60,873 bases of DNA from Nostoc sp. TH1S01 (GTDB taxonomy: Bacteria > Cyanobacteriota > Cyanobacteriia > Cyanobacteriales > Nostocaceae): positions 1 through 60,873 of the forward strand of contig JAGKSW010000024.1 in the NCBI GenBank assembly GCA_018993265.1, written 5' to 3'. The notes beneath the pieces were generated by a model. It was not told the DNA's origin and did no database searches. It was given only the letters and a program-made list of their open reading frames with translations. Below are positions 34,515-58,639 of this stretch, one piece after another. Made by a program: the position numbers and the translations under genes. Numbering within the stretch: the stretch's first letter is position 1; every line of letters begins with the position of its first letter.

Positions 34515-34569
34515 AATTTCACACTTCATACTTCATACTTCATACTTCACACTTCACATTTCACACTTC
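34515..34569. repeat. Heptamer array at the end of the DUF1611 gene
   Basis: ACACTTC/ATACTTC units in inverse orientation to the array at 34345-34380, so the two could pair across about 140 bp. The stop of the DUF1611 gene (34561-34563) lies inside. Confidence 0.85.
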
Positions 34570-41070: not shown

Positions 41071-41992
41071 AGATTTTCGTTTATCCTATCCCACTTACAT
41101 ATCTCTATTATTTACTGTTAAGTAAAATATTTAAGGTGCTGTCAGATAGCAACTAGTCCAAAACTTGCCAAAGTCTTGCCTGACAAGGCAAATCGCTTCC
41201 AAAAGCTGATTTATTCACTTAATAATATAGATATGGTCTGGGCTGCCCAAAGCATGAGCCACAACTCCTAAAAAAATACTCGACAAACATCACACCCCTC
41301 ATCTATAATGTGAGATTGTGACCAAACGGCAAAATAAAGCTTTTCTCTTTCATTGGCATGGGCATACAATCTAACAGCTGATTAAACAGAATCAAGTTAT
41401 GATTTAGCCTAAACTGTCAAGAGACTGCTAAACTAAAAAAGCCTTGATGTTCACCAATGAAATTATGGCTAATTAATCAAAGCCATAACCCGGACGTAAT
41501 CTGGATTTTCTCCTGTAGCCCGGATAAATTAGGCAAAACCTTGAACAATAGTTTCAGGTGATCCTAAAAGTAGAAACTGAGTCGTAATACTAGCGCTGTA
41601 GTAGTACAAGAGTCTTAGTTATAGGGATACTGAGTGGTAAGTAACTGCTTAAGTCCTTCTACAACAAGGAGGCAACCACAAAAGCAGCCTCCAAAAAGTG
41701 CCTAAGCAACTGCTTGGACGAGAGCATTGCTGCACAAAGTGCAAAGCTTTAGAGCATTGCCTTAAAACCAGAGATTTGTAATTCCATTTGGAAGCAACTC
41801 ATGGTTGTTCTAGTAAACAACTGAATTCACGTAAACGGATTCACCAAAAAGTCAGGGAACGGTTTTTGTTTTCCGGATAAGAGAAAGCAGCGTTTGCCGC
41901 TGGAAATTGCTGAGGATCGTCCTCCCTCAGTCGGAACATCACCGACAATCCCGATGAATCTGCTCAGTAAGTAAAAAGGAGAACCAGTTACT
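41071..41992 (+). promoter_or_regulatory. Divergent promoter region and long leader of the ribosomal cluster
   Basis: No gene is seen in 920 bp. The part near rplC has structure: GGAGGC/GCCTCC (41668-41673, 41687-41692), and a TGCAC-AAA-GTGCA hairpin (41731-41743) between two copies of AGAGCATTGC (41721-41730, 41751-41760). AAAAGGAG before the rplC GTG is the ribosome binding site. Such a leader could carry ribosomal protein feedback control, but I cannot identify a known binding site. Confidence 0.5.
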
Positions 41993-42628
41993 GTGTCTGT
42001 AGGTATTCTCGGCACCAAGCTGGGCATGACCCAAATATTTGACGAGGCAGGAGTATCAATTCCTGTCACAGTCGTTCAAGCAGGGCCATGCACTGTTACA
42101 CAAGTTAAAACAAAACAAACTGACGGTTACGCCGCCATTCAGGTTGGTTATGGCGAAGTCAAACCAAAAGCTCTAAATAAACCCTTGTTGGGTCACTTAG
42201 CCAAATCATCAGCACCAGCTTTACGTCACCTAAGCGAGTTTCGCACAGATAATTCTAGCGAATACACATTAGGTCAAGAAATCAAAGCAGATATTTTTAG
42301 TGCTGGTCAAATCGTAGATGTAATTGGTACAAGTATCGGTCGCGGTTTTGCAGGCAACCAAAAGCGGAATAACTTTGGTCGCGGGCCAATGTCTCACGGT
42401 TCTAAAAACCACAGAGCGCCCGGTTCCATTGGTGCTGGTACAACACCCGGTCGTGTTTATCCAGGAAAAAGAATGGCAGGGCGCTTGGGCGGTAGCCGCG
42501 TCACCATTAGTAAATTGACAGTTGTGCGTGTAGACGCAGAACGCAACTTATTACTCATCAAAGGAGCAATTCCTGGTAAACCAGGTTCCCTAGTGAGTGT
42601 TGTGCCCGCAAAGAAAGTTGGTAAATAG
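41993..42628 (+). CDS. rplC: 50S ribosomal protein L3
   Basis: 211 aa, GTG start at 41993 after AAAAGGAGAAC. L3 is an early 23S-binding protein near the peptidyl transferase centre. Blocks: [15 protein letters not shown] at the N-terminus, the central extended loop [20 protein letters not shown] and [10 protein letters not shown]. It is the first gene of the cluster; rpsJ (S10) is not present before it, as usual in cyanobacteria. Confidence 0.97.
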
Positions 42629-42718
42629 TCAATCGTCAATAGTCATTAGTCATTGGTCATAGCTAAAGACAAATGACAAAGGACTAATGACAAAAGACAA
42701 ATGACAAAGGACAAAAAA
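42629..42718. repeat. Inverted heptamer arrays, rplC-rplD spacer
   Basis: GTCATTA/GTCATTG-type units (about 42629-42660) are followed by AATGACA/AAAGGAC-type units (about 42668-42718). The two blocks are complementary (TCATT with AATGA) and can fold. The last unit places AAAGGA just before the rplD ATG. Confidence 0.85.
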
Positions 42719-43351
42719 ATGGTTGAGACTGTAGTTAAAAACTGGCAAGGAGAGGAAGTCGGGCAGAAAACGTTCGACTTGCGAGTTGCCAAAGAAGAAA
42801 CAGCGGCCCATATTGTACACCGCGCCTTGGTTAGACAAACAACCAATGCTCGTCAAGGAACCGCTAGTACAAAAACTCGCGCAGAAGTTAGAGGTGGTGG
42901 CCGCAAACCTTGGCGGCAAAAAGGCACAGGTCGCGCTCGTGCTGGTTCGATTCGTTCTCCCTTATGGCGTGGTGGTGGTGTGATCTTTGGGCCTAAACCC
43001 AGAGAGTACGACCTGAAAATGAACCGGAAAGAACGGCGGTTGGCATTACGTACAGCTTTTGTAAGTCGTGCTGAAGACTTGATTGTGGTCGAAGAATTTA
43101 GTAACGAACTTTCTCGTCCGAAAACTAAAGATTTATTGGCAGCTTTAGTGCGTTGGGGAGTAAACCCAGAACAAAAGACACTGTTAATTTTGTCTGAGAT
43201 TACCGAGACAGTTTATCTGTCAGGACGCAACGTCGAGAACTTAAAAATTATTGCCGCAGATCAGTTGAATGTTTATGACCTGCTGCACGCTGACAAGCTT
43301 GTGGTTACAGCACCAGCATTAGAAAAAATTCAGGAGGTCTACAATGGCTAA
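42719..43351 (+). CDS. rplD: 50S ribosomal protein L4
   Basis: 210 aa from ATG 42719 ([15 protein letters not shown]); an upstream in-frame ATG at 42701 lies in the repeat array and is not used. L4 binds 23S RNA and lines the exit tunnel with its basic loop ([20 protein letters not shown]). In other bacteria L4 can repress its own operon. It overlaps rplW by 8 bp. Confidence 0.96.
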
Positions 43352-43658
43352 GATTGCGCCCCGTGATCTGCCTGACTTGGTGCGTCGCCCGATTGTCACC
43401 GAAAAAGCAACGATTCTGATGGAACAGAATCAATACACTTTTGAAGTAGTTCTGAAAGCTACCAAGCCAGATATTAAAGCAGCGATCGAAGACTTGTTTC
43501 AAGTCAAAGTAGTCAAAATCAATACTGCTACACAGCCACGGAAAAAACGTCGCGTTGGCAAATTTATTGGCTACAAACCTCAATATAAGAAAGCTATTGT
43601 TACCGTCTCACCTGGGGACGCACAAAAGATTAGACAGATTCTATTCCCAGAGGTCTAA
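43344..43658 (+). CDS. rplW: 50S ribosomal protein L23
   Basis: 104 aa with [20 protein letters not shown] and [20 protein letters not shown], standard L23 blocks. L23 sits at the tunnel exit and docks trigger factor and SRP. A good AGGAGG lies before ATG 43344, within the end of rplD. Confidence 0.96.
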
Positions 43659-43664
43659 CAAAAA

Positions 43665-44528
43665 ATGGGTACTCGTTCTTATCGCCCTTATACCCCCAGT
43701 ACTCGTCAAGTTACAATCTCCGACTTTTCGGAAATTACTAAAAAAGAGCCAGAAAAGTCTCTGACGGTGTACATCCATCGCGCCAAAGGTCGCAATAATC
43801 AAGGGCGGATAACCAGCCGTCGTCGGGGTGGCGGCCATAAAAGACTTTATCGAATTATTGATTTTAAAAGAGATAAGCGTAACATTCCCGCTACAGTGTT
43901 AGCGATCGAGTACGATCCCAACCGCAACGCTCGTATTGCCTTACTGCAATATCAGGATGGGGAAAAACGCTATATCCTCCAACCTAATGGATTGACTGTA
44001 GGCAAAACCTTAATGGCTGGCCCTGAGTCTCCCATTGAAGATGGTAATGCTTTACCACTGGCAAACATTCCTTTAGGTACAAACGTACATAACGTAGAAC
44101 TGACTGCGGGTAAGGGTGGTCAAATTGTCCGTGCTGCTGGTGCGACAGCGCAAGTAGTGGCGAAAGAAGGTAATTATGTCACCCTCAAGTTGCCTTCTGG
44201 GGAAGTGCGGATGGTACGGCGTGAATGCTACGCTACCATCGGGCAAGTAGGCAACACCGACTTTAGAAACCTGAGTGCAGGTAAAGCTGGACGCAATCGC
44301 TGGAAAGGTCGCCGCCCGAAAGTTAGAGGTAGCGTCATGAACCCAGTTGATCACCCACATGGTGGTGGTGAAGGTAGAGCGCCCATTGGTCGTTCTGGCC
44401 CTGTCACACCTTGGGGTAAACCAACATTGGGAGCCAAGACACGCAAACCCAAGAAACCTAGCAGTAGATTGATTGTACGCCGTCGTCGTAAATCTTCTAA
44501 GCGCGGTCGTGGTGGTCGTCAGTCATAG
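43665..44528 (+). CDS. rplB: 50S ribosomal protein L2
   Basis: 287 aa, normal length. The key C-terminal segment [20 protein letters not shown], needed for peptidyl transfer and subunit joining, is intact, and the tail is basic ([13 protein letters not shown]). ATG 43665, six bases after rplW. Confidence 0.97.
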
Positions 44529-44534
44529 GCAAGT

Positions 44535-44643
44535 CTGAAGTATGAAGTATGAAGGATGAAATAGAAACGTTTAACTTTCCATCTTCATCCTTAAGTCTTT
44601 ATTCTTCATTTTTAATTTTCATTTTTAACCTCATCCTGATACT
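44535..44643. repeat. Inverted heptamer arrays, rplB-rpsS spacer
   Basis: TGAAGTA/TGAAGGA units (about 44535-44560) are followed by TCTTCAT/CCTTAAG-like units (about 44580-44615) in opposite sense, able to pair. Confidence 0.75.
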
Positions 44644-44922
44644 ATGGGTCGTTCACTAAAAAAAGGGCCTTTCGTTGCCGATCACTTACTCAGCAAAATT
44701 GAAAAGCTGAATGAGAGAAACGAAAAGCAAGTGATTAAAACTTGGTCAAGAGCCTCAACAATTCTGCCCCAGATGGTAGGACACACGATCGCTGTTCACA
44801 ATGGCAGACAACATGTCCCCGTGTTTATCAGCGATCAGATGGTAGGCCATAAGTTGGGAGAATTCGCCCCAACACGCACCTACAGGGGTCATGGCAAAAG
44901 TGACAAAAAAGCGGGTAGATAG
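44644..44922 (+). CDS. rpsS: 30S ribosomal protein S19
   Basis: 92 aa, [20 protein letters not shown] at the start and [20 protein letters not shown] at the end. S19 contacts S13 and tRNA in the 30S head. Confidence 0.97.
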
Positions 44923-44929
44923 TTTGTTC

Positions 44930-45005
44930 TTTGTCTATTGTCATTAGTCCTTTGCAACTGACAAATGACAAATGACAGATGACGAATGACAAACGACAAG
45001 GAGAA
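44930..45005. repeat. Inverted heptamer arrays, rpsS-rplV spacer
   Basis: GTCTATTGTCATTAGTCC is followed by a run of GACAAAT/GACGAAT units ending in ACAAGGAG, which is the rplV ribosome binding site. Confidence 0.85.
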
Positions 45006-45009
45006 AAAC

Positions 45010-45369
45010 ATGGCAACTAATACTACAGAAGTAAAAGCGATCGCCCGTTATATACGCATGTCTCCCTTTAAAGTGCGTCGTGTACTCGATCAGATTCGGG
45101 GGCGGTCTTACAGAGAAGCGTTAATTATTTTGGAATTCATGCCTTATCGGGCTTGTGAACCAGTATTGAAACTAATTAGAAGCGCAGCTGCAAATGCTGA
45201 ACACAATGCAGGTTTAGACCGCGCTCAACTGGTAATTACTCAAGCTTATGCCGATCAAGGCCCAGTCCTAAAACGTTTCCAACCTAGAGCGCAAGGTCGA
45301 GCTTACCAAATTCGCAAACCAACGTGTCACATCACAGTAGCTGTAGCTGCTGGTGAGACTGCGGAATAA
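45010..45369 (+). CDS. rplV: 50S ribosomal protein L22
   Basis: 119 aa from ATG 45010 ([19 protein letters not shown]). An ATG at 44986 in the repeat array is not used. L22 lines the exit tunnel; its beta hairpin ([19 protein letters not shown]) is intact. Confidence 0.96.
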
Positions 45370-45395
45370 TTACCAGAACTTTAGAGGAAGCATTT

Positions 45396-46151
45396 GTGGG
45401 ACAAAAAATTCATCCAGTTGGCTTTCGCCTCGGAATTACCCAAGAACACCAATCTAGGTGGTACGCAGATCCTGAACGCTATCCAGAACTTTTACAAGAA
45501 GATTACAAACTACGTAATTACATCGAACAAAAACTGGGTAGACTCGCTCAAAATAATGCTGGCATTTCCGAAGTCAGAATTGAGCGCAAAGCAGACCAAA
45601 TTGATTTAGAAGTACGCACAGCCCGCCCTGGTGTAGTTGTAGGTCGTGGTGGACAAGGTATCGAATCCTTACGCACTGGACTGCAAGATTTATTAGGCGG
45701 TACTCGCCAAATTCGGATCAACGTCGTCGAAGTCCAACGAGTTGATGCCGATGCTTACTTGATTTCGGAATACATCGCCCAACAATTAGAACGTCGGGTT
45801 TCCTTCCGTCGCGTAGTCCGCCAAGCTATTCAACGGGCGCAACGTGCTGGTATTCAAGGAATTAAAATTCAAGTCAGTGGTCGGCTCAACGGTGCGGAAA
45901 TTGCGCGGACAGAGTGGACGCGTGAAGGTAGAGTACCTCTACACACCTTACGGGCTGACATTGACTACGCTTACTGCACAGCCAAAACCGTTTACGGTAT
46001 TTTAGGCATCAAAGTGTGGGTATTTAAAGGAGAAATTATTCCTGGACAGGAAGAAACTCAACCCCAACCCGCCACCCGCGAACGTGAACCACGTCGCCGT
46101 CAACAACAGCGCCGTCGTCAGCAGTTTGAAGACCGTTCAAATGAAGGCTAA
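45396..46151 (+). CDS. rpsC: 30S ribosomal protein S3
   Basis: 251 aa, GTG start at 45396 after AGAGGAAG. It has a type II KH domain with GRGGQGIE and the C-terminal domain [20 protein letters not shown], followed by an Arg/Gln-rich tail. S3 forms the mRNA entry site. The last residues (NEG) and TAA lie at the start of a TGAAGGC/TGAAGGA heptamer array. Confidence 0.96.
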
Positions 46152-46247
46152 GGGATGAAGGCTGAAGGATGAACAATTTGTGTTTCATACTTCACACTTC
46201 ACACTTCATACTTCACACTTCATACTTCATACTTCATACTTCATAGT
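46144..46247. repeat. Inverted heptamer arrays, rpsC-rplP spacer
   Basis: TGAAGGC/TGAAGGA units (46144-46170) are followed by nine or so ACACTTC/ATACTTC units (46183-46242). The array is open in the rplP frame and creates a false 23-residue extension ([13 protein letters not shown]). Confidence 0.9.
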
Positions 46248-46248
46248 C

Positions 46249-46677
46249 ATGTTAAGTCCTAGAAGAACTAAATTCCGCAAACAACAGCGCGGGCGAATGG
46301 CGGGTCTAGCCCACAGAGGTAGCACCCTCAACTTTGGAGATTTTGCCCTCCAAGCCCAAGAACCAGCTTGGATCACCTCTCGACAAATCGAGGCTTCCCG
46401 TCGGGCGATGACTCGTTATATCCGCCGGGGTGGGAAAATCTGGATTCGGATTTTCCCAGATAAACCTGTTACCATGCGTCCAGCAGAAACACGGATGGGT
46501 TCTGGTAAAGGTAATCCAGAGTTTTGGGTAGCAGTAGTCAAGCCAGGGCGGATTTTATTTGAAATCGCTGGTGTTTCTGAAGAAATCGCCCGTGAAGCTA
46601 TGCGCCTAGCTGCATACAAACTGCCAATTAAAACCAAATTTATTGTGCGCTCTCAAATAGAAGAGGAGCAGGAGTAG
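46249..46677 (+). CDS. rplP: 50S ribosomal protein L16
   Basis: 142 aa from ATG 46249 ([19 protein letters not shown]). The frame continues upstream into the repeat array, which is not part of the family. L16 helps form the A site; [20 protein letters not shown] is intact. No strong Shine-Dalgarno precedes this ATG. Confidence 0.96.
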
Positions 46678-46680
46678 GTC

Positions 46681-46908
46681 ATGCCGCTTCCCAAGATTTC
46701 AGAAGCTAGAGAATTAAGTGACGAACAATTAGCCGCAGAAATTGTCGCCACTAAAAAACAACTGTTTCAGTTGCGCTTGCAAAAGGCAACTAGACAACTA
46801 GAAAAACCTCACCAATTCCGCCATGCTCGCCATCGCCTCGCCCAACTTTTGACAGTAGAGGGAGAGCGCAAACGGGCAGCAAGTCAAACTCCTAAAGAAG
46901 AGAACTAA
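46681..46908 (+). CDS. rpmC: 50S ribosomal protein L29
   Basis: 75 aa, helical hairpin with ELSDEQLAAEIVATKKQLFQ and the conserved RHARHRLAQLLT. It is at the tunnel exit beside L23. It starts 3 bp after rplP; GGAG lies in the rplP end. Confidence 0.95.
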   Translation: MPLPKISEARELSDEQLAAEIVATKKQLFQLRLQKATRQLEKPHQFRHARHRLAQLLTVEGERKRAASQTPKEEN

Positions 46909-46914
46909 GAGATT

Positions 46915-47163
46915 ATGGCAATCAAAGAACGAGTTGGCTTGGTAGTGAGCGACAAAATGCAAAAAACGGTGGTTGTTGCCATTGAAAACCGCGCTCCCCA
47001 TCCCAAATACGGCAAGATTGTAGTTAAAACCCGCCGCTACAAAGCTCACGATGAAGAAAATAAATGCAAAGTGGGCGATCGCGTGCGGATTCAGGAAACT
47101 AGACCCCTGAGCAAAACTAAACGCTGGCAAGTCACAGAAATCCTCAACACTAAAAATTCATAA
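46915..47163 (+). CDS. rpsQ: 30S ribosomal protein S17
   Basis: 82 aa OB-fold primary 16S binder: [28 protein letters not shown] and [11 protein letters not shown] are standard blocks. It starts 6 bp after rpmC. Confidence 0.96.
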
Positions 47164-47202
47164 GTTGTTATTTAACTAACAACTGCACAAGGGAGACCAA
47201 TT

Positions 47203-47571
47203 GTGATTCAACCCCAAACTTACTTAAATGTGGCAGATAACAGTGGCGCGCGGAAACTAATGTGTATCCGTGTATTAGGTGCTGGTAATAGCCGTTACGG
47301 TTTTATCGGCGACAGAATTATCGCTGTTGTTAAAGATGCTATTCCCAACATGGCTGTAAAAAAATCCGATGTTGTGGAAGCTGTGATTGTTCGCACTCGC
47401 CATAACATTCGTCGTGATAGTGGGATGACTATTCGCTTTGATGATAACGCCGCCGTAATCATCAATAAAGAAGGTAATCCTAGAGGTACACGGGTATTTG
47501 GCCCAGTAGCACGGGAACTCCGCGACAAGAACTTTACTAAAATAGTTTCGCTAGCTCCGGAGGTGCTGTAA
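47203..47571 (+). CDS. rplN: 50S ribosomal protein L14
   Basis: 122 aa, GTG start at 47203 ([20 protein letters not shown]) after GGGAG. L14 bridges to the small subunit. Overlaps the rplX ATG by one base (TAATG). Confidence 0.97.
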
Positions 47572-47915
47572 TGGCAATCCAAAAGGCAAAAGAATTTCAT
47601 AAAATGCACGTCAAAACTGGTGACACCGTGCAAATAATTGCTGGCAAAGACAAAGGCAAAGTTGGCGAAGTAATTAAAGCATTACCCCAACTGAGCAAAG
47701 TCGTGGTTAAAGGTGTCAACATTAAGACTAAGCACGTTAAACCCCAACAAGAAGGGGAATCTGGACGGATTGTTACCCAAGAGTACCCAATCCACAGTTC
47801 CAACGTGATGCTCTATTCCACAAAACAAAATGTCGCTAGTCGCGTTTGCTACACCTTTACCTCCGAAGGTAAGAAGGTGAGAAAACTCAAAAAAACTGGC
47901 GAGATTATTGATTAA
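47571..47915 (+). CDS. rplX: 50S ribosomal protein L24
   Basis: 114 aa with a KOW motif ([20 protein letters not shown]). L24 starts assembly of the 50S subunit. Start coupled to rplN. Confidence 0.96.
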
Positions 47916-48013
47916 GGATGAAGTTTCAAGTCTGAAGTATAAATATTACTTATTTTATCTTCATCCTTCATAATCTTCCCTGACCAAGCCCAGGGATCTC
48001 AGGACAAAAAACT
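47916..48013. repeat. Heptamer-like arrays, rplX-rplE spacer
   Basis: GGATGAAGTTTCAAGTCTGA and later TCTTCATCCTTCAT (about 47916-47972) are inverted relatives and can pair. No gene is seen. Confidence 0.7.
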
Positions 48014-48562
48014 ATGGCGACAACAAGACTCAAAACTTTATATCAAGAGACAATCGTCCCAAAACTCACAAATCAGTTTCAATACACCAACGTTCATCAA
48101 GTACCGAAGTTGGTCAAGGTGACTGTTAACCGAGGTTTGGGTGAAGCGGCACAAAACGCTAAGGCTTTAGAAGCTTCTATCAACGAAATCGCACTAATTA
48201 CAGGTCAAAAACCTGTAGTGACAAGGGCGAAAAAAGCGATCGCCGGCTTTAAAATCCGTCAAGGTATGCCTGTCGGGATCATGGTCACTCTCAGAGGCGA
48301 GAGAATGTATGCCTTTCTCGACCGCCTCATCAGCTTGACACTACCTAGAATTCGTGACTTTCGTGGTATTAGCCCTAAAAGCTTTGATGGCCGAGGTAAC
48401 TATACTCTAGGCGTAAGAGAACAGCTAATCTTTCCAGAAGTCGAATACGATAGCATTGATCAAATTCGCGGTCTGGATATTTCAATCATTACTACAGCAA
48501 AAAATGACGAAGAGGGCCGCGCTTTACTCAAAGAATTGGGAATGCCCTTTCGCGATCAATAA
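48014..48562 (+). CDS. rplE: 50S ribosomal protein L5
   Basis: 182 aa, with [40 protein letters not shown] and the C-terminal [18 protein letters not shown]5 binds 5S RNA. rpsN (S14) does not follow it, as in other cyanobacteria. Confidence 0.97.
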
Positions 48563-48582
48563 GTTCATCTAAAGAGGGAACG

Positions 48583-48984
48583 ATGGCGGCTAACGACACA
48601 ATTGCAGATATGCTGACGCGCATCCGCAATGCCAACATGGCAAGGCATCAAACAACACAAGTGCCAGCCACTAAAATGACCCGTAGTATTGCCAAGGTAC
48701 TACAGGAAGAAGGATTTATTTCTGAAATTGCAGAAGCTGGAGAAGGCGTAAAAAGTCATCTGGTGATTTCCCTAAAATATAAGGGTAAAAATCGTCAGCC
48801 TTTGATTACTGCCCTCAAACGGATCAGTAAACCTGGTTTACGCGTTTATTCCAACCGAAAAGAACTACCCAGAGTATTAGGCGGTATCGGTATTGCCATT
48901 ATTTCTACATCTAGCGGCATTATGACTGACCGTGAAGCTCGCCGTCAGAATTTGGGTGGTGAAGTACTTTGCTACGTCTGGTAG
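48583..48984 (+). CDS. rpsH: 30S ribosomal protein S8
   Basis: 133 aa, [20 protein letters not shown] at the start and [19 protein letters not shown] at the end. S8 is a primary 16S binder and in other bacteria controls the spc operon. Confidence 0.97.
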
Positions 48985-49077
48985 TCATTAGTCATTTGTC
49001 ATTAGTCATTGGTCATTAGTAAATGGCAACTGACAAAAGACAAATAACAAAGGACAAATAACAAAGGACAAAAGATC
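48985..49077. repeat. Inverted heptamer arrays, rpsH-rplF spacer
   Basis: Five GTCATTA/GTCATTT/GTCATTG units (48984-49020), a short turn, then ACAAAAG/ACAAATA/ACAAAGG units (49030-49072). The last ones give AAAGGACAAAAG before the rplF ATG. Confidence 0.9.
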
Positions 49078-49626
49078 ATGTCTCGTATTGGTAAACGACC
49101 AATTACTATTCCCGCCAAAGTGCAAGTCACAATTGATGGCACTAAAGTTGTAGTCAAGGGCCCCAAAGGTGAGCTTTCACGGGATCTACCTGTTCACGTG
49201 ACAGTGAGCCAAGAAGGAGAAACCTTACAAGTAGTTCGTAAAGATGATTCTCGTACCTCTCGCCAAATGCACGGTTTAAGCCGGACATTGGTTGCCAACA
49301 TGGTAGAGGGAGTTTCCCAAGGTTTTCAACGTCGGTTGGAAATTCAAGGGGTAGGTTATCGCGCCCAAGTGCAAGGACGGAACCTAGTTTTAAACATGGG
49401 TTTCAGTCATCAAGTACAAATTGAACCACCAGATGGAATTCAGTTTGCGGTAGAAAATAACACTAACGTCATAGTTAGTGGCTATGACAAAGAAATCGTA
49501 GGTAATACAGCAGCTAAAATTCGTGCCGTCCGACCACCAGAACCTTATAAAGGTAAAGGTATTCGCTATGCGGGTGAAGTAGTCAGACGCAAAGCTGGTA
49601 AGACTGGTGGTAAAGGTAAGAAGTAA
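49078..49626 (+). CDS. rplF: 50S ribosomal protein L6
   Basis: 182 aa with two similar domains; [20 protein letters not shown] at the start and [20 protein letters not shown] near the end. It sits at the base of the L7/L12 stalk. The likely ribosome binding site AAAGGA is provided by the repeat array. Confidence 0.97.
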
Positions 49627-49628
49627 AA

Positions 49629-49991
49629 ATGAAACTTACTCGTAGAGAATCCAAACAGCGTCGTCATCGCCGCATCCGTGGTAAGGTTAACGGTTCCCTA
49701 GAACGCCCACGCCTAGCCGTATTTCGCTCTAACCAACATATTTACGCCCAAGTAATTGATGATACTCAGCACCATACTTTAGTTGCAGCATCAACTTTAG
49801 ATGCAGAGTTAAAAGCAAATTTAGCTTCTGGGGCTAACTGTGAAGCATCTGCACAAGTTGGGAAGTTGATTGCAGCGCGTGCGCTTGAAAAAGGCATTAC
49901 TAAAGTAGTCTTTGATCGCGGTGGTAACATATATCACGGTCGAATCAAAACACTAGCTGAAGCTGCACGCGAAGCTGGTTTAGATTTTTAA
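49629..49991 (+). CDS. rplR: 50S ribosomal protein L18
   Basis: 120 aa 5S RNA binder: [35 protein letters not shown] and [20 protein letters not shown] are standard. It starts 2 bp after rplF. Confidence 0.97.
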
Positions 49992-50140
49992 AGTCATTAG
50001 TCATTAGGAGCCAGTGCGTTGGGCGGCTTAGCCGACTTGTAGCAACTGGCGTTCATTGGTCATTGGTCATTAGGTAAATGACAAAGGACAAATGACAACT
50101 GACAAATGACAATTGACAAATGACATTTAGAGAGCATGAA
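49992..50140. repeat. Heptamer arrays with an inserted hairpin repeat, rplR-rpsE spacer
   Basis: GTCATTA units are interrupted at 50010-50050 by a separate repeat with GCCAGT/ACTGGC ends and a CGGCTTAGCCG core, then resume as TTCATTGGTCATTGGTCATT. Complementary AAATGACA/AACTGACA units follow (50075-50128). Confidence 0.85.
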
Positions 50141-50142
50141 TT

Positions 50143-50667
50143 ATGGCAACAGGTCGTCGTAAAGCTAACCGCGCAAAAAAAGAAGAGACCAACTGGCAAG
50201 AGCGGGTAATTCAAATCCGACGTGTGAGCAAGGTAGTTAAGGGTGGTAAAAAACTCAGCTTCCGTGCGATCGTCGTTGTTGGTAACGAACGTGGTCAAGT
50301 AGGTGTTGGAGTAGGGAAAGCCTCAGATGTTATCGGTGCTGTGAAAAAAGGCGTAGCCGATGGCAAAAAACACCTAATTGACATTCCGATTACCAAATCT
50401 AATTCCATTCCTCATCCTATTGATGGCGTTGGTGGTGGCGCAAAAGTCATCATGCGTCCAGCCGCACCTGGTACTGGTGTAATTGCTGGTGGTGCCGTGC
50501 GGACTGTACTGGAATTAGCTGGAGTTCGCAATGTTCTTGCTAAACAACTTGGTTCTAACAACCCACTAAATAATGCTAGAGCCGCTGTTAACGCTTTATC
50601 TACCCTGCGTACTTTGGCGGAAGTTGCTGAAGACCGCGGTATCGCTATTGACAAACTCTACATTTAG
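50143..50667 (+). CDS. rpsE: 30S ribosomal protein S5
   Basis: 174 aa, with the RNA-binding [23 protein letters not shown] block and [21 protein letters not shown]5 acts in decoding fidelity. ATG 50143. Confidence 0.97.
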
Positions 50668-50712
50668 TAGAGTTTCACTCACAGAGTTCTTGTACACAAT
50701 ACAAATAACATC

Positions 50713-51159
50713 ATGAGACTCAACGATGTTAAGCCTCAAAAAGGCTCAAAAAAACGCCGTCGCCGTGTAGGTAGAGGTATTTCTGCTGGTCAAGGTGCCA
50801 GTGCTGGTCTAGGTATGCGGGGTCAAAAATCTCGCTCTGGTAGCAGTACTAGACCAGGGTTTGAAGGCGGTCAACAGCCATTATACCGCCGTATACCCAA
50901 GCTGAAAGGCTTTCCACTTGTGAATCGCAAGATTTACACTACGATAAATGTAGAGAAGTTAGCCTCTCTTCCTGCCAATACAGAAGTAACATTGGAATCC
51001 TTAAAAGCAGATGGGATTTTAACCTCTGCCAAAGGGCCATTGAAAATTTTGGGTAATGGGGAATTGAACGTTGCCCTCAACGTTAAAGCGGCAGCTTTCA
51101 CAGGCCAAGCTCGTAGCAAAATTGAGGCAGCTGGAGGAAGTTGTGAAGTTTTAGGGTGA
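50713..51159 (+). CDS. rplO: 50S ribosomal protein L15
   Basis: 148 aa with the Gly/Arg-rich N-terminus ([30 protein letters not shown]). rpmD (L30) is absent between rpsE and rplO, usual for cyanobacteria. Confidence 0.97.
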
Positions 51160-51226
51160 AGCCAACCGCGCACTTAAATACCTCAACTCGCTTCCAGTGC
51201 CTGGTTCACGACAAAGGTAGCACTCT

Positions 51227-52540
51227 ATGATCAGTCGAGATAAAGCCCCAACGGCTCAAGAAACTTTTATGCAGATGGCACAAGCAGCTGGGCTAAGAGG
51301 CAGGCTGCTTGTCACTGTCGGTATTTTAATTTTGGTTCGCCTAGGTATATTTTTACCTGTACCAGGAATTGATAGACCTAGGTTTGCTGAAGCCATTTCC
51401 GGCAATAATTCCATATTCGGTTTATTGGATATCTTTTCTGGGCGCGGACTTTCTACTTTGGGAGTCTTTGCTTTAGGGATTCTGCCCTTTATCAATGCGT
51501 CTATTATCATCCAATTGCTGACTGCGGCTATCCCATCTTTAGAAAATTTACAGAAAAATGAAGGCGAAGCAGGACGGCGGAAAATATCACAGATTACACG
51601 CTACGTCTCGCTAGGCTGGGCAATAATCCAGAGCGTAGCTTTTTCTGCCTTCTTCCTACAACAATTCGCCTTAAATCCAGGCCCGCTATTTGTAGCTGAA
51701 ACTGCGATCGCTCTTACCGCAGGTTCAATGTTCGTTATGTGGGCATCCGAACTGATCACAGAACGAGGTATTGGTAATGGCGCATCACTGTTGATTTTTG
51801 TCAACATTGTCGCTTCACTACCTAAATCTCTAGGCGACACCATCGACTTAGTACAAGTTGGTGGTAGAGAAATTGTGGGTCGGGTAATTGTCCTAGTGTT
51901 GGTATTCCTGGCAACCATTGTTGGGATTGTGTTTGTACAAGAAGGTATTCGCCGCATCCCCATCATTTCGGCTCGTCGTCAAGTAGGTAGAAGAGTGTTG
52001 GCAGAACAACGTAGCTATCTACCACTGCGTCTCAATTCTGGTGGTGTGATGCCAATTATTTTTGCGGCTGCCATCCTCAGTTTGCCACTTTTAATTGCCA
52101 ACTTTACGAAGAATCCCGAATTGGCGAATATCGTCAACACCTATCTTAGTCCAGGTGGTTCTGCGCCTTGGGTATATGCACTAGTTTACTTAACTTCGAT
52201 TGTTTTCTTTAGCTACTTCTACTCTTCATTAATTGTGAACCCAGTTGATGTAGCGCAAAACTTGAAAAAAATGGGTTCTAGTATACCTGGCATTCGTCCA
52301 GGTAAAGCTACCAGTGAGTATATCGAACGAGTCATCAACCGATTAACTTTTTTGGGAGCTATATTTTTAGGCTTGGTTGCGATTATTCCTACCGCTGTGG
52401 AAAGTGCGTTGAAAGTGCCAACCTTCAAAGGACTGGGTGCTACTTCATTGTTAATTCTAGTTGGTGTGGCAATTGACACCGCAAAACAAGTCCAAACTTA
52501 CGTTATTTCTCAGCGATATGAAGGAATGGTGAAACAATAG
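51227..52540 (+). CDS. secY: Preprotein translocase subunit SecY
   Basis: 437 aa with ten membrane helices; the channel of the Sec system in plasma and thylakoid membranes. Seen: the plug region [26 protein letters not shown] near 180, the cytoplasmic loop [15 protein letters not shown] near 245 and [20 protein letters not shown] near 355. It overlaps adk by one base. Confidence 0.97.
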
Positions 52541-53094
52541 TGACGCGACTAATCTTCTTGGGGCCACCTGGAGCGGGTAAGGGAACTCAAGCTCAAGTTT
52601 TGGCAGAACACCTGCATATACCTCATATTTCCACAGGTGAAATACTGAGGCAAGCCATGAAAGAGCAAACTCCTCTGGGAATTAAAGCTCAAGGTTATGT
52701 GGATAGCGGTGAGCTTGTTCCTGATCAGTTGGTGCAAGACTTAGTAGAGGAACGTCTAGGTCAATCAGATGCCACATCTGGATGGATTTTAGATGGGTTT
52801 CCTCGCAAAGTTACACAAGCAGCTTTTTTAGAAGAATTGCTGGCAAAAACTGCTCAAGGGGGTGAAAGGGTAGTTAATTTAGATGCACCAGATGACGTTG
52901 TAATATCACGTTTACTAGCTAGGGGCAGAACAGATGATACCGAAGAGGTGATTCGTCGTCGCCTAGAAGTGTACCGCAATGAAACTGCACCTTTGATCAA
53001 CTACTATAGTGAACGCCAAAGGCTGTTAACAGTCAATGGTAATCAATCCCAAGAAGAAGTCACTAGTGAATTGAAACAAATTTTAGCTTCCTAG
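52540..53094 (+). CDS. adk: Adenylate kinase
   Basis: 184 aa, GTG start at 52540. P-loop [13 protein letters not shown]-binding [19 protein letters not shown] and [20 protein letters not shown]. It is the short form without the zinc-type LID insertion. It converts ATP and AMP to two ADP and sits after secY as in many bacteria. Confidence 0.96.
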
Positions 53095-53296
53095 TTGGAG
53101 ATGTAGGAGTAGTTATGGGGACGAATAAAATTCACCAGTCACTACTCCCAATTCTTCACTGAACTCTGGCAAGAGTATGCTGATCAATTTTAGCTAAGAT
53201 ATATTAATAAACTGTTGATATATTTCTCAAATTGTGTTCTTTTGCAGATAATCGCTGCAAGCGAACGAGAAATCGTTGAGTTGAGGAACAAAAAAA

Positions 53297-53521
53297 TTGT
53301 CTAAGCAAGATTTGATTGAAATGGAAGGTACAGTTACTGAGTCCTTGCCAAACGCGATGTTTCGCGTTGACTTGGACAACGGTTTTAATGTACTAGCACA
53401 CATTTCTGGAAAAATTCGCCGCAACTACATCAAGATTTTGCCAGGCGATCGCGTCAAGGTTGAACTCACTCCCTATGACCTGACAAAAGGCCGAATTACC
53501 TATAGATTGCGGAAAAAATAA
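53297..53521 (+). CDS. infA: Translation initiation factor IF-1
   Basis: 74 aa OB-fold protein; TTG start at 53297 ([20 protein letters not shown]), the usual IF-1 N-terminus. It binds the ribosomal A site. The 202-bp spacer from adk may hold a separate promoter. Confidence 0.96.
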
Positions 53522-53656
53522 TTAAATCCAGAAAAAATTAGTTATATGTGAAGGATCTTACCATAAAATCAACTTGTTGGGAGATTCTCATTTACTTAAC
53601 TGTAATATTTTTCTAGAAATGCTATAATTTTATATTTGGAGTCAATTAAGAAAGGC

Positions 53657-53770
53657 ATGAAAGTCCGAGCCTCTGTCAAAAAAATTTGCGAAAAGTGTAA
53701 CGTGATTCGCCGTCGTGGTCGCGTTATGGTGATTTGCTCTAACCCCAAGCATAAACAACGTCAAGGATAA
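53657..53770 (+). CDS. rpmJ: 50S ribosomal protein L36
   Basis: 37 aa, [20 protein letters not shown] then [15 protein letters not shown]. The Cys-Cys-Cys-His zinc site is complete. ATG 53657 after AAGAAAGG. Confidence 0.97.
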
Positions 53771-53893
53771 CACTCTCAGTATTGGGGAGTGAACCGTGAC
53801 TAGAGAAAATCATCACAAAAATTCTAGATGTGGAACATAAATCACCCACATCTTACCAATAGAAATTGCGAGAACAACAGGGAGAGATTTATT

Positions 53894-54274
53894 GTGGCAC
53901 GTATTGCCGGCGTAGACCTGCCACGCGATAAACGCGTAGAGATTGGTCTAACTTACATTTATGGAATTGGATTATCAAGGTCGCAAGAAATTCTGGCGAC
54001 TACAGGTGTCAATCCAGACACGCGTGTGAAAGACTTAAGTGATGCCGATGTCGCAGCCCTACGTGCAGAAATAGAAAGCAATTATCAAGTAGAAGGTGAC
54101 TTGCGGCGCTGGGAAGGCATGAATATCAAGCGCCTAATTGACATCGGTACCTACAGAGGTCGTCGCCACCGTATGGGTTTACCAGTGAGAGGACAAAGAA
54201 CTCGTACTAATGCTAGAACCCGTCGTGGTAGAAGGCAGACAGTGGCTGGTAAGAAGAAAGCTCCTGGCAAATAA
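53894..54274 (+). CDS. rpsM: 30S ribosomal protein S13
   Basis: 126 aa from GTG 53894 ([20 protein letters not shown]) after AGGGAGAG. The frame extends to 53828, but that part is not in the family. [20 protein letters not shown] is the basic tail that contacts tRNA. Confidence 0.96.
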
Positions 54275-54328
54275 TTGTTCATTGCTTGCTCAACAGAGCA
54301 AGTTTTTCCTTAAATTAACTAAACAAAT

Positions 54329-54724
54329 ATGGCGAGACAACCAACTAAAAAAACTGGGAGTAAAAAGCAAAAGCGGAACGTACCCAACGGACTTGCTTAC
54401 ATCCAATCTACTTTCAACAATAGCATTGTCACCATCACTGATCAAAACGGCGATGTTATTTCCTGGGCAAGTGCTGGTTCCAGTGGTTTTAAGGGAGCTA
54501 AAAAAGGAACTCCCTTCGCAGCGCAAACCGCTGCTGAAAGCGCCGCCCGTCGAGCTATTGACCAAGGAATGCGCCAAATAGAAGTGATGGTTAGTGGCCC
54601 TGGTGCAGGTAGAGAAACTGCGATTCGCGCCCTTCAAGGAGCAGGACTGGAAATTACACTCATTCGGGATATTACACCAATTCCTCACAATGGTTGCCGT
54701 CCACCAAAACGCCGCCGAGTCTAG
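54329..54724 (+). CDS. rpsK: 30S ribosomal protein S11
   Basis: 131 aa with [20 protein letters not shown] and [19 protein letters not shown], standard S11. It forms part of the mRNA exit platform. Confidence 0.97.
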
Positions 54725-55059
54725 TTACAACTTGTTGGGCAAAAAATACCAGAAGTTTCAATGAACAATTCACTTGTCATAGCTACTAACGTTTTGTTTT
54801 TAGTTATCAAGCAGAGTAAACAATCAATAACTTCTGGTGGCTTGGGTGGTAAAAAGCCAGTTAGCTCTTCCTAGAGGGAGAGCTGCTGTACTTTACATAA
54901 CACCATATTTATGGATAAACGCCCGCAAGCTTAATCAAGGAGTTCAATTACCGCCATAGAGATGTTGGCAGTTTGATAAGCCTGAAGAAAGCTCAGGGCA
55001 AAAGTAAATTGAATAGGCAATTAATTGCTAGCAGCACCTTAATTAAGGGAGGCTACTCC
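54725..55059. other. Structured spacer between rpsK and rpoA
   Basis: A 10-bp inverted repeat ACCAGAAGTT (54748-54757) and AACTTCTGGT (54829-54838) encloses 71 bases, and a second hairpin AGCTCTTCCT/AGGGAGAGCT (54863-54884) follows. AAGGGAGG before the rpoA GTG is the ribosome binding site. A 37-codon frame (54761-54874) exists but has no support. Confidence 0.6.
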
Positions 55060-56007
55060 GTGGCGCAGTTTCAAATTGAATGTGTAGAGTCTAGTACAGA
55101 AGAAAGTCGGAGTCATTACAGTAAGTTTGTCTTAGAACCCCTAGAGCGTGGTCAAGGCACAACTGTTGGTAATGCACTGCGACGGGTGTTATTGTCCAAC
55201 TTGGAAGGAACAGCCGTGACCGCAGTGCGAATTGCAGGTGTTACACACGAGTTTGCCACAGTTCCGGGTGTGCGGGAAGACGTGCTAGAAATTTTGATGA
55301 GAATGAAAGAAGTTATTCTCAAAAGCTATTCTTCTCAACCCCAAATTGGCAGATTGCTTGTGACTGGGCCAGCAACAGTAACAGCCGCCCATTTTGATTT
55401 GCCTAGTGAAGTTGAAGTTGTTGATCCTACCCAGTATGTTGCGACTCTTGCTGAGGGCGGTAAGCTGGAAATGGAATTTCGCATCGAACGCGGTAAGGGT
55501 TATCGTACCGTAGAACGAGGACGGGAAGAAGCTACTTCTTTGGACTTTTTGCAAATCGACTCAGTATTTATGCCGGTGCGAAAAGTCAACTATAGTGTTG
55601 AAGAAGCCCGTGCAGATGGCTCGATTACCAAAGACAGACTGTTATTAGAAGTTTGGACAAATGGCAGTGTCTCTCCCCAAGAAGCACTATCCTCAGCGGC
55701 CAGTATTTTGGTAGATTTATTCAACCCACTGAAGGATATTTCTTTAGAACCAACAGATATTGGTTCTGATGTTCCAGACGATCCAACTGCTCAAATTCCC
55801 ATCGAAGAATTGCAACTTTCTGTGCGGGCATATAACTGTCTCAAACGCGCACAAGTTAATTCTGTGGCAGACTTGTTGGATTTTACCCAAGAAGATTTGC
55901 TAGAAATCAAAAACTTTGGTCAGAAATCGGCGGAAGAGGTGGTGGAAGCGTTGCAACGACGCTTGGGTATTACCTTACCGCAAGAAAGAAGCTCCAAACA
56001 CAGCTAA
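55060..56007 (+). CDS. rpoA: RNA polymerase alpha subunit
   Basis: 315 aa from GTG 55060 (MAQFQIECVESSTEESRSHY) with AAGGGAGG 8 bases before; the longer frame from 54973 adds 29 residues outside the family. The N-terminal dimerisation domain (PLERGQGTTVGNALRRVLLS) and the C-terminal domain (AYNCLKRAQVNSVADLLDF, KNFGQKSAEEV) are both complete. Confidence 0.97.
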   Translation: MAQFQIECVESSTEESRSHYSKFVLEPLERGQGTTVGNALRRVLLSNLEGTAVTAVRIAGVTHEFATVPGVREDVLEILMRMKEVILKSYSSQPQIGRLLVTGPATVTAAHFDLPSEVEVVDPTQYVATLAEGGKLEMEFRIERGKGYRTVERGREEATSLDFLQIDSVFMPVRKVNYSVEEARADGSITKDRLLLEVWTNGSVSPQEALSSAASILVDLFNPLKDISLEPTDIGSDVPDDPTAQIPIEELQLSVRAYNCLKRAQVNSVADLLDFTQEDLLEIKNFGQKSAEEVVEALQRRLGITLPQERSSKHS

Positions 56008-56040
56008 AGCAAAACCTTTCATCTTTCATAGTCCACTATT

Positions 56041-56391
56041 ATGCGTCACCGTTGTCGGGTTAAAAAACTTGGTAAACCAGCTGACCAGCGTCGCGCTCTG
56101 TTGCGTACCTTAACCACTGAGCTAATTCGTCATGGTCGAATTACCACTACTTTAATCAGAGCGAAAGCTTTGCGGAGTGAAGTAGATAAAATGATTACCT
56201 TAGCTAAAGACGGCTCCTTAGCATCTCGTCGTGCAGCTTTAGGTTATATATACGATAAGCAACTGGTTCATGCTTTGTTTGAACAAGTTCCTACTCGGTA
56301 TGCTAATCGTAATGGTGGTTACACCCGGATTATCCATACCATGCCTCGGCGTGGAGATAATGCCGAAATGGCAATTATTGAACTGGTGTAA
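56041..56391 (+). CDS. rplQ: 50S ribosomal protein L17
   Basis: 116 aa, [20 protein letters not shown] and [20 protein letters not shown]. Located at the tunnel exit side. It follows rpoA as in most bacteria. Confidence 0.97.
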
Positions 56392-56439
56392 GTCATTAGT
56401 CATTAGTCAAATTGACAAATGACAAAGGACAAAATCTGT
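56392..56439. repeat. Inverted heptamer arrays, rplQ-truA spacer
   Basis: GTCATTA units (56392-56407) followed by TGACAAA units (56413-56430); the end gives AAAGGACAAAA before the truA ATG. Confidence 0.85.
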
Positions 56440-57261
56440 ATGTTAGAAATTGACCAGCCGAAACAAACTCAAAGAGTTGCCTTGGTAATTCAATACCTTG
56501 GTACTCATTTTCATGGCTGGCAAAGGCAAAAGGGGCAGCGTACAGTCCAAGAAGAAATCGAAACAGCGATCGCGAGTATTCTTGGTCATCATGTCACACT
56601 ACATGGTGCAGGACGCACTGATGCTGGTGTTCATGCTGCTGCACAAGTAGCCCACTTTGATGCTACAGGTTTAATTCCGGCTCAGAAATGGGCAACAGTT
56701 CTCAATAGTTATCTGCCGCAAGACATAATAATAAGGGCTTCAGCACCAGTAAGTAACGCTTGGCACGCGCGTTTTAGCGCGGCTTATCGGCGATACCGCT
56801 ACACGATATACACTGAAAAACGACCAAATTTGTTCGTTAAACCCTTTAGTTGGCATTATTATCATGAGCCACTGGATGAATTATTAATTCAGTCTGCCAT
56901 GAAACCTCTCTTGGGCAAGCATCATTTGGCTGCTTTCCATCGTGCAGGCTCCAAAAGAGCGCATTCTTGGGTGGAGGTACAAGCCGCAGAATGTCAGCGC
57001 AACGGGTCATTAATCCATATTGAAATCCAAGCAGATGGATTTTTATATGGCATGGTTAGGCTACTAGTGGGAATGCTAATACAAGTAGGTGCTGGACAGC
57101 GAACCCTGGCGAACTTCACCGAAATTTGGCAAGAAGAACGCCGAGAAGAAGTAAAATATGCCGCACCTGCTCAGGGTTTATGCTTGTTGCGCGTCGGCTA
57201 TCCTGATTTTCCTTTTTCTGGTGATATTTGGTACGATACCCAGCCCAAATTTAGTTTTTAG
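56440..57261 (+). CDS. truA: tRNA pseudouridine synthase A
   Basis: 273 aa from ATG 56440 (MLEIDQPKQTQRVALVIQYL); ATG 56419 lies in the repeat. It modifies positions 38-40 of tRNAs. The catalytic Asp is in GAGRTDAGVHAAAQ near residue 61. Its place between rplQ and rplM is normal in cyanobacteria. Confidence 0.95.
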   Translation: MLEIDQPKQTQRVALVIQYLGTHFHGWQRQKGQRTVQEEIETAIASILGHHVTLHGAGRTDAGVHAAAQVAHFDATGLIPAQKWATVLNSYLPQDIIIRASAPVSNAWHARFSAAYRRYRYTIYTEKRPNLFVKPFSWHYYHEPLDELLIQSAMKPLLGKHHLAAFHRAGSKRAHSWVEVQAAECQRNGSLIHIEIQADGFLYGMVRLLVGMLIQVGAGQRTLANFTEIWQEERREEVKYAAPAQGLCLLRVGYPDFPFSGDIWYDTQPKFSF

Positions 57262-57327
57262 TCATTGGTCATCAGTCATTGCTCAATGACGAATGACAAA
57301 GGACAAAATAACAAAGGACAAACACAA
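57262..57327. repeat. Inverted heptamer arrays, truA-rplM spacer
   Basis: GTCATTGGTCATCAGTCATT followed by AATGACGAATGACAAAGGAC and further ACAAAGG units. AAAGGACAAAC lies before the rplM ATG. Confidence 0.88.
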
Positions 57328-57780
57328 ATGAGTAAAACCTACCTTCCGCCTCAAGCTTCACTTGAGCATGATTGGTACGTAGTAGATGCTACTGACCAAC
57401 GTCTTGGTCGCCTCGCTACCGAAATCGCTATGATTCTCCGAGGCAAAAAGAAACCGGAATATACACCTCACATGGACACTGGTGACTTTGTGATTGTGAT
57501 TAATGCCGAGAAAATCGCAGTTACTGGTAAAAAACGGACTCAAAAATTATATCGTCGCCACTCTGGCCGTCCTGGTGGAATGAAGACCGAAACTTTTGCC
57601 AAGCTGCAACAGCGCATCCCCGAACGGATTGTTGAACATGCTGTTAAAGGTATGCTTCCTAAAAATAGCTTGGGTCGGCAGTTGTTTACCAAGCTAAAAG
57701 TTTATGCAGGGCCGACTCATCCCCACGAAGCTCAACAACCTAAAGAATTAAAAATTAGTACAATTCCTGGAGAAAGCTAA
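57328..57780 (+). CDS. rplM: 50S ribosomal protein L13
   Basis: 150 aa from ATG 57328 ([20 protein letters not shown]); the frame upstream to 57265 crosses the repeat array. Blocks [20 protein letters not shown] and [18 protein letters not shown] are standard. Coupled to rpsI by TAATG. Confidence 0.97.
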
Positions 57781-58196
57781 TGGTAGTAGCAGAAGCAAAT
57801 AGCGGTCGCGCCGTGTACTGGGGTACTGGTCGCCGGAAATCAGCAGTAGCAAGAGTCCGCCTTGTCCCTGGTAGCGGTCAATTGACAGTTAATGGCAAGC
57901 CTGGAGATTTATACTTCCAATTCAATGCTAATTACTTGGGAGTAATTAAAGCTCCTTTGGAAACCCTTGGCTTAGAAACCGAATATGACATTTTGGTGAA
58001 AGCTGAGGGTGGTGGCTTGACTGGTCAAGCTGATTCTATCCGTTTGGGTGTGGCTCGTGCTTTGTGCCAATTAGACCCAGAAAATCGCTCACCCTTAAAA
58101 ACCGAAGGTTATCTCACCCGCGATCCCAGAGCGAAAGAGCGCAAAAAATACGGTTTGCACAAAGCTCGCAAAGCTCCTCAGTACTCTAAACGATAA
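57780..58196 (+). CDS. rpsI: 30S ribosomal protein S9
   Basis: 138 aa, [20 protein letters not shown] and the C-terminal [17 protein letters not shown], whose last Arg reaches the P-site tRNA. Confidence 0.97.
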
Positions 58197-58262
58197 GGGA
58201 TTGGGTCTTGGGAATTGGGTAATTTTTGTAGTTCCTAGTCCCTAGTCCCTAGTCTCTAAATT
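58197..58262. repeat. Short repeats, rpsI-rpmE spacer
   Basis: GGGATTGGGTCTTGGGAATT at the start and CCTAGTCCCTAGTCCCTAGT at about 58235-58255: heptamer-type units of another sequence class. Confidence 0.75.
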
Positions 58263-58306
58263 CCACTGAAAGTTATAATTTATATAGATTCACCACAAAA
58301 GGAACA

Positions 58307-58546
58307 ATGGCTAAACCTGATATTCATCCCCAGTGGTATCCAGAAGCTAAAGTCTATTGCAACGGTCAAGTTGTGATGACTGTTGGTTCTACCAAACCAG
58401 AATTACACGTAGATGTTTGGTCTGGAAATCACCCTTTTTATACTGGTACTCAAAAGATTATCGACACAGAAGGTCGCGTAGAACGCTTTCTGCGGAAATA
58501 CGGCAAGTCAAGCGAGCAAGGCTCCGGCGGCAAAAAGAAAAAGTAG
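58307..58546 (+). CDS. rpmE: 50S ribosomal protein L31
   Basis: 79 aa, DIHPQWYPEAKVYCNGQVVM and DVWSGNHPFYTGTQKIIDTE. The zinc-binding CxxC pairs are missing, so it is the zinc-free form usual in cyanobacteria. A purine-rich AAAAGGAAC precedes the ATG. Confidence 0.95.
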   Translation: MAKPDIHPQWYPEAKVYCNGQVVMTVGSTKPELHVDVWSGNHPFYTGTQKIIDTEGRVERFLRKYGKSSEQGSGGKKKK

Positions 58547-58569
58547 CGGTTTGGCTCTGCTGTTAACGA

Positions 58570-58604
58570 CGACCCTGCGAATGCTGGGTCGATTGTCATT
58601 TTTT
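58570..58604 (+). terminator. Possible terminator between rpmE and prfA
   Basis: CGACCC (58570-58575) and GGGTCG (58586-58591) with a 10-base loop, then a T-rich stretch ending in TTTTTT. The stem is short and the T-run is set off by eight bases, so it may be partial. Confidence 0.4.
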
Positions 58605-58639
58605 GAGCCAAGTTGTTATTTGAAGGAGCGATCGCACTT

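Follow-up and report, generated by a model that had tools for sequence, protein, structure and literature searches.

Inverted heptamer-repeat pairs in the ribosomal operon spacers of Nostoc and its relatives: a possible class of replaceable hairpins behind stop codons

The ribosomal operon of Nostoc sp. TH1S01 raises the question of why so many of its spacers contain a block of one tandem 7-nt unit followed by a second block that nearly mirrors it in complement. The operon runs from rplC to rpsI and lies inside contig JAGKSW010000024.1 of assembly GCA_018993265.1, a stretch of 60,873 nt (hereafter the window, which denotes this whole stretch) from a 7.65-Mb genome. A sequence-only reading had named nine such spacers and proposed that the repeats fold in the mRNA, supply ribosome binding sites and act as RNA-processing or stability elements. 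To our knowledge, heptamer repeats have been known in cyanobacteria for decades without a function. A 2015 survey likewise described their role as still to be found (PMC4692102, consulted part). We found that the elements are short tandem heptamer repeats (STRR-type) arranged as inverted pairs, that in the typical element a short loop separates a G-leaning 5' block from a near-complementary 3' block, and that the family at a given spacer was repeatedly replaced, both arms changing together. The explanation that we favour, and to which we give an even chance, is that these are replaceable heptad-repeat hairpins located after stop codons and resembling repetitive extragenic palindromes (REP), in which the pair is renewed at the DNA level and use as a Shine-Dalgarno (SD) sequence is secondary.

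Arrays were detected by lag-7 identity and stems by an ungapped inverted-repeat scan, with 200 dinucleotide shuffles as a control. The best 80 operon loci were used as relatives together with the window, giving 58 Nostocales loci (window counted) and 23 from other cyanobacteria; among the matches listed, those nearest to the window were Nostoc records. Arrays of 7-nt units were present in 578 of the 1081 Nostocales operon spacers of 25-700 nt (58 genomes) and in 14 after shuffling. Only period 7 stood out: it was detected in 563 of 1010 spacers of at least 40 nt, and periods 5, 6, 8 and 9 in 4, 13, 26 and 14, respectively. The other cyanobacterial loci carried arrays in 60 of 333 spacers and were rich in them in a few cases, e.g. 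L064 (12/17) and L072 (8/9).

Species differ in the family that they carry at one and the same spacer. For example, GTCA, GGGNAT, TGAAG, GGTNA, GTTA and ATTTTAG types all occur between rpsC and rplP, and parsimony on a tree of 56 genomes, built from nine concatenated genes and containing two nodes with support below 25, requires at least 78 family changes over ten spacers (2, 13, 4, 15, 10, 3, 9, 8, 11 and 3; unclassified rows excluded). The arms nevertheless agree with each other: complementary families were found in 268 of the 297 array spacers in which both arms could be classified (281 of the 578 were dropped, as one or both arms were unclassified), where independence would give 89. When right arms were dealt at random within each spacer, the mean was 169 and the maximum in 1000 trials 188. 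Moreover, in 11 array spacers own arms paired better than arms taken from the corresponding spacer of another genome in 65-84% of comparisons, whereas the figure was 45-52% in the controls infA-rpmJ, rpmJ-rpsM and adk-infA. At the level of single units, 94 of 120 adjacent array pairs from Nostocales matched at 5-7 of 7 positions (35.6 expected).

Such arrays are not confined to the operon: they form an intergenic repeat class found throughout the genome and spread across Nostocales and some other cyanobacteria. The pattern GTCATTNGTCATTN occurred 373 times in the genome and its reversed control 7 times. A sample of 1.31 Mb (about 17% of the genome), with 1012 genes called by an in-house hexamer script, had arrays in 227 of 734 spacers, namely 154/470 codirectional, 50/145 convergent and 23/119 divergent ones (7, 0 and 2 after shuffling), and arrays made up 8.0%, 8.5% and 3.3% of the respective spacer sequence. 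Coding sequence contained 35 arrays in 666 kb (first 0.85 Mb of the sample). Compared with the remaining codirectional spacers of 40-250 nt, the operon showed no clear enrichment (6/10 versus 90/273, p = 0.09), and these counts depend on the gene caller, which was retrained after its first version missed rpsS, infA and rpmJ. Arrays can also be absent. The rpsC-rplP spacer is 3 nt long in L005, and L031 has arrays in only 1 of 11 spacers, with six of the nine named spacers at or below 30 nt. Within the Nostocales operon, arrays were nearly missing from infA-rpmJ (0/55), rpmJ-rpsM (3/55), rpsM-rpsK (4/55) and rplV-rpsC (2/55). The almost array-free infA-rpmJ and rpmJ-rpsM spacers measure 135 and 123 nt (window 53522-53893), and the avoidance suggests a constrained function there, such as a promoter or an RNA element.

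Outside the operon, array stems were closer to the stop codon in 77 cases and to the start codon in 29, with median distances of 24 and 98 nt, and in convergent spacers their median distance from the nearer stop was 9 nt (35 stems). The choice of stop codon was linked to the repeat family. Of the 234 spacers in which GTCA units lay close to the stop, 127 followed a TAG codon, compared with 180 of 705 in the 'other' class; this comparison excludes the GTTA and ATTTTAG classes, and its rows are not phylogenetically independent. This link was also seen inside single spacers, i.e. behind rplX (15/15 with GTCA versus 20/43 without), rpsH (33/40 versus 7/16) and rplC. Element orientation was considered as proof of function and rejected. 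The 5' arm contained more G than C in 114 array stems and the reverse in 25, summed over the three orientation classes (118 to 98 in non-array stems), and in the operon GTCATTA-left elements outnumbered the reverse orientation 108 to 10, although the relatives are not independent. This polarity is found in convergent and divergent spacers too and is therefore largely built into the element.

Under the explanation that we favour, the whole inverted pair would be the unit of turnover, and a DNA-level repeat process would maintain it through slippage within the arms and the insertion or copying of new pairs. The pair would be tolerated chiefly between a stop codon and the translation-initiation region of the next gene. 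Once transcribed, it might form an imperfect post-stop hairpin that acts like REP elements and the mosaic elements built from them (BIME), either as a barrier to exonucleases or as a spacer between cistrons, and SD use would be secondary and local, at truA, rplM and perhaps rplD. Several observations weigh against this explanation. Non-array stems show a stop-side bias as well (100 to 50). The TAG link is missing behind rpsC and rpsS, and behind rplR (0/34 with GTCA), rplQ (2/33 with versus 4/19 without) and rpsE (1/17 versus 20/39) it is either missing or reversed. Three of the six control spacers, rplO-secY (0.71), rpsM-rpsK (0.68) and rpsK-rpoA (0.77), favour own arms too; these three carry arrays in part of the genomes. 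The present data contain no sign of mobility or of a copying machine. In addition, exact complements (7 of 7) occur in only 3 of 120 pairs, which is not what one would expect of a purely DNA-templated origin. This rarity disfavours one arm having served as an exact DNA template for the other, and the earlier description of the second block as the complement of the first is correct only in the sense of a near-complement. Finally, agreement of families across many switches is also expected if an RNA stem is selected, and in operon stems G-U mismatches were slightly above the composition expectation (0.110 versus 0.078) and A-C mismatches were not (0.176 versus 0.180), yet raw A-C mismatches (449) exceeded G-U (281).

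The last two points bear on the chief rival, namely that the hairpin is selected as RNA, as an operon insulator or as a processing or stability element, with its sequence left free so that families drift or swap while the arms pair. We consider this possible but rather unlikely. It accounts for the persistence of arm agreement through family switches, and G-U pairs were slightly enriched against composition in codirectional array stems of the own-genome sample as well (0.209 versus 0.163; A-C 0.178 versus 0.170). Numbers of units in the two arms correlated in three of eight spacers (rpsH-rplF 0.61, rplR-rpsE 0.47, rplQ-truA 0.66), and the published parallel, the P6b stem of the trnL intron, is an RNA stem (PMC4476775, as far as the consulted part goes). 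However, the correlation was not significant in the other five spacers, convergent array stems enrich A-C more than G-U, arrays are equally frequent in convergent spacers, the 5' arm leans to G in every orientation class, and L031 and L005 dispense with arrays. Among the stem mismatches, A.A and G.A were commonest, and mismatch spacing had a minor peak at 7 nt. A stronger form of the same idea, which we regard as doubtful, is that the inherited thing at many Nostocales operon spacers is the hairpin architecture and not the sequence: imperfect 7-nt steps would be rebuilt repeatedly from unrelated families and would persist because a stem is required in the transcript, i.e. an operon-wide, sequence-free RNA insulator whose last unit is free to become an SD sequence. 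If the spacers were unconstrained and the arrays arose simply by polymerase slippage, having neither a role nor a paired unit, the strict period of 7 and the variation in length would be explained, and slippage has been proposed for other 7-mers (PMC4692102 and PMC4679880, consulted parts). On its own, though, slippage leaves the complementarity of the opposite arm in 268 of 297 cases unexplained; as a full explanation it is improbable, and we retain it only for growth within arms.

That arrays exist mainly to provide SD sequences is, in our estimate, very improbable, and as a general role it is contradicted. We compared SD-like motifs within the last 22 nt between genomes with a family-1 arm (at least two units between -20 and -80) and those without it, the latter of which may still hold residual units closer to the ATG. 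Such a motif occurred with versus without the arm in 26/28 versus 22/27 genomes for rplD, 22/22 versus 25/33 for rplV, 25/32 versus 25/26 for rplF, 20/25 versus 21/28 for rplM (p = 0.75) and 11/24 versus 2/31 for truA (p = 0.001). In genomes without the arm an SD is kept at four genes, rplF, rplV, rplD and rplM, which speaks against the proposal as a general statement. Outside Nostocales the SD was found in 9/20 (rplD), 18/21 (rplV), 22/23 (rplF), 3/17 (rplM) and 1/17 loci (truA). Arrays also precede starts that mostly have no SD (rplP and rpsS; rpsE has one in 19/58). Supply of ribosome binding sites is not the general role because arrays occur in 50 of 145 convergent spacers, where no start codon is present, and are as common there as in codirectional ones. 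Genome-wide, pairs of A-type units showed no excess before starts (10/912) over after stops (9/857), and their sense and antisense forms stood at 10 to 3 before starts and 9 to 8 after stops. General supply of ribosome binding sites was rejected on account of the SD retained without arrays, the convergent spacers and this lack of excess.

Locally, the idea that the repeat was adopted as a translation signal fared better. The GG variant of the unit (AAAGGAC) occupied the first start-proximal unit in 19/33 arrays before rplD, 23/36 before rplF, 13/33 before rplM (where the second unit had it in 21/33) and 8/22 before truA, but in only 4/24 before rplV, and it was scarce in the first unit where the gene has no SD (rpsE 1/34, rplP 1/26, rplO 1/16). 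For rplD, rplF and rplM, the distance between the last AAAGGA-like site and the ATG was in most cases 7-12 nt. This concentration at rplD, rplF and rplM and the rarity before rpsE, rplP and rplO suggest that the last unit is adapted to the gene it precedes. The SD of rplF and rplV either predates the array or does not depend on it, because it occurs without the array and outside Nostocales. That of truA may derive from the array since the two track each other, and that of rplM may do so since it is rare outside Nostocales (3/17 versus 41/53 within), though it does not track the arm within the order. The sequence GGACAAANRACAAA was observed at 39 places in the genome, and at several of these (e.g. 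L193, L194 and L197) the start codon appears by eye to lie inside the array; the gene at L194 we take to be ispF-like.

In the window, all nine named spacers are read on the + strand, and eight have a 7-nt array above threshold together with an inverted stem that was reached by 0/200 shuffles. Six of them are of the GTCATTA type, and their RNA folds are predicted to be more stable than those of shuffles (z -2.5 to -4.5), in agreement with the proposed mRNA stems. The rplC-rplD spacer (42629..42718; 26/33 pairs, z -4.5) has a GTCATTA-type left arm at 42628-42660, an ACAAA-type right arm at 42673-42705 and AAAGGA 7 nt 5' of the rplD ATG. In rpsS-rplV (44923..45009; 25/33 pairs, z -3.9), the arms at 44922-44954 and 44962-44994 are followed by AAGGAGAAAAAC 5' of rplV. 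The rpsH-rplF spacer (48985..49077; 28/37 pairs, z -3.8) has arms at 48984-49020 and 49033-49069 and AAAGGA 9 nt 5' of the rplF ATG, and its first unit contains the rpsH stop TAG. Arms in rplQ-truA (56392..56439; 15/18 pairs, z -3.3) lie at 56392-56409 and 56413-56430, with AAAGGA 10 nt 5' of the truA ATG. Those in truA-rplM (57262..57327; 17/21 pairs, z -2.5) lie at 57261-57281 and 57284-57304, with AAAGGA 9 nt 5' of the rplM ATG and the truA stop TAG contained in the first unit. In line with the earlier claim, rplD, rplV, rplF, truA and rplM each have an AAAGGA or AAGGAG whose end is 6-10 nt 5' of the ATG. Alternative in-frame ATG codons were found inside the array for rplD (42701), rplV (44986) and truA (56419); they would add MTKDK- or MTNDK-like leaders, and the predicted starts of such genes may be wrongly placed.

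The sixth GTCATTA-type spacer, rplR-rpsE (49992..50142; 16/19 pairs, z -3.6), has no SD, and its left array (49992-50007) is interrupted by a palindromic insert before the array resumes at 50053-50125. This insert in the left arm, GAGCCAGT...AACTGGC (about 50008-50052), has a larger, apparently nested form in L002, and similar GAGCCA(C/G)T inserts were seen within arrays of other spacers in L007, L019 and L021. Another palindrome, AGAGACGCGATTAATCGCGTCTGTACA, recurs as an insert in heptamer arrays in several spacers of different genomes (L018, L016, L013 and L032) and resembles the small dispersed repeats of Nostoc. Predicted folds were weaker (z -1.5 to -1.9) in the three remaining spacers; array-free controls gave -1.3 (infA-rpmJ) and -1.0 (rpmJ-rpsM). 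Between rplB and rpsS (44529..44643; 20/25 pairs, z -1.5), a TGAAGTA left arm at 44536-44560 faces a right arm at 44584-44608, and between rpsC and rplP (46152..46248; 16/19 pairs, z -1.9) a TGAAGGA left arm at 46155-46173 faces a CTTCATA/CTTCACA array (best stem 46205-46223); neither has an SD. The claim of an inverted array did not hold for rplX-rplE (47916..48013), where no array exceeds the threshold and a short 10-bp stem was reached by 13/200 shuffles. Further 7-nt arrays were observed at 22447-22618, 26090-26126, 28429-28458, 34518-34571 and 58229-58258, and one of them, between rpsI and the next gene, faces a G-rich stretch.

The rplX-rplE spacer contains a separate conserved hairpin, TCCCTG-ACCAAGCC-CAGGGA (47977-47996), 17 nt 5' of rplE. 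Its core pattern CCTGAC..CCAGG, which itself fixes four inner pairs, was present in 80 of the 81 loci with rplX and rplE, where its end is 15-25 nt 5' of the start codon, and the next outward pair was C-G in 71, T-A in 7 and T-G in 2. This hairpin is a candidate ribosomal-protein control site; in E. coli an S8 site lies near rplE and may be a parallel. An Rfam scan of 41500-58700 gave no match at the gathering threshold, either to this hairpin or to any other part of that region.

The ribosomal operon offers the same spacers in many species, and in these the family and the sequence are free and the pairing of the arms is not. Function and selfish spread thereby become testable site by site, and truA and rplM are concrete cases in which a ribosome binding site may have arisen from a repeat. 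Parts of this picture are already published, namely replacement of a heptamer class with the stem kept (trnL intron) and inverted heptamer pairs (Xanthomonas), according to the consulted parts of PMC4476775 and PMC4692102. Our literature search did not find family exchange in operon spacers; work on very small mobile Nostoc repeats lay outside that search, and we do not claim priority.

Comparisons with known systems rest on the consulted parts of the papers cited. The STRR of Calothrix PCC 7601 (cited in PMC4692102) and the GGGGA(T/C)T repeats of Nostoc PCC 7120 are, like the present arrays, tandem heptamers that are dispersed and mostly intergenic. We place our elements with them by repeat form (a tandem 7-nt unit) and by their many dispersed copies, not by unit identity. 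A further likeness is that the G-rich strand of GGGGA(T/C)T is the coding strand after open reading frames (ORFs) and the non-coding strand before them (PMC4692102). Few of the Nostoc GGGGA(T/C)T repeats are reported there as paired (inverted), whereas eight of the nine named spacers are paired here and about eight families exchange at these same sites among relatives. Heptamer arrays beside start codons, also near ribosomal-protein genes, are known from Beggiatoaceae (TAACTGA, PMC4679880), but these have one sequence and are almost only direct repeats (one indirect in the described genome). Inverted pairs of intergenic heptamer arrays occur in Xanthomonas (GGGAATC, PMC4692102), where the paired type is usually preserved between relatives; this is one GC-rich family with G-quadruplex potential, and family exchange is not reported in that part of the source. 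The P6b stem of the Nostoc trnL intron (PMC4476775) consists of complementary heptamers, of which one class was independently replaced with the structure kept. The present spacers share complementary heptamer arms and class replacement with the (predicted) stem kept; P6b, however, is one site with two classes within a self-splicing group I intron, and here many operon spacers and more families are involved. Lastly, REP/BIME elements (PMC3733652) are palindromic, lie 3' of ORFs in codirectional or convergent spacers and may supply a TAG stop, and the arrays resemble them in each respect, with a higher share of codirectional and convergent than of divergent spacer sequence and stems mostly on the stop side. 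They have a conserved family sequence with a GTAG or CGTC tag and an associated RAYT transposase. The tandem heptamers described here have no fixed sequence, and the likeness is one of form and position.

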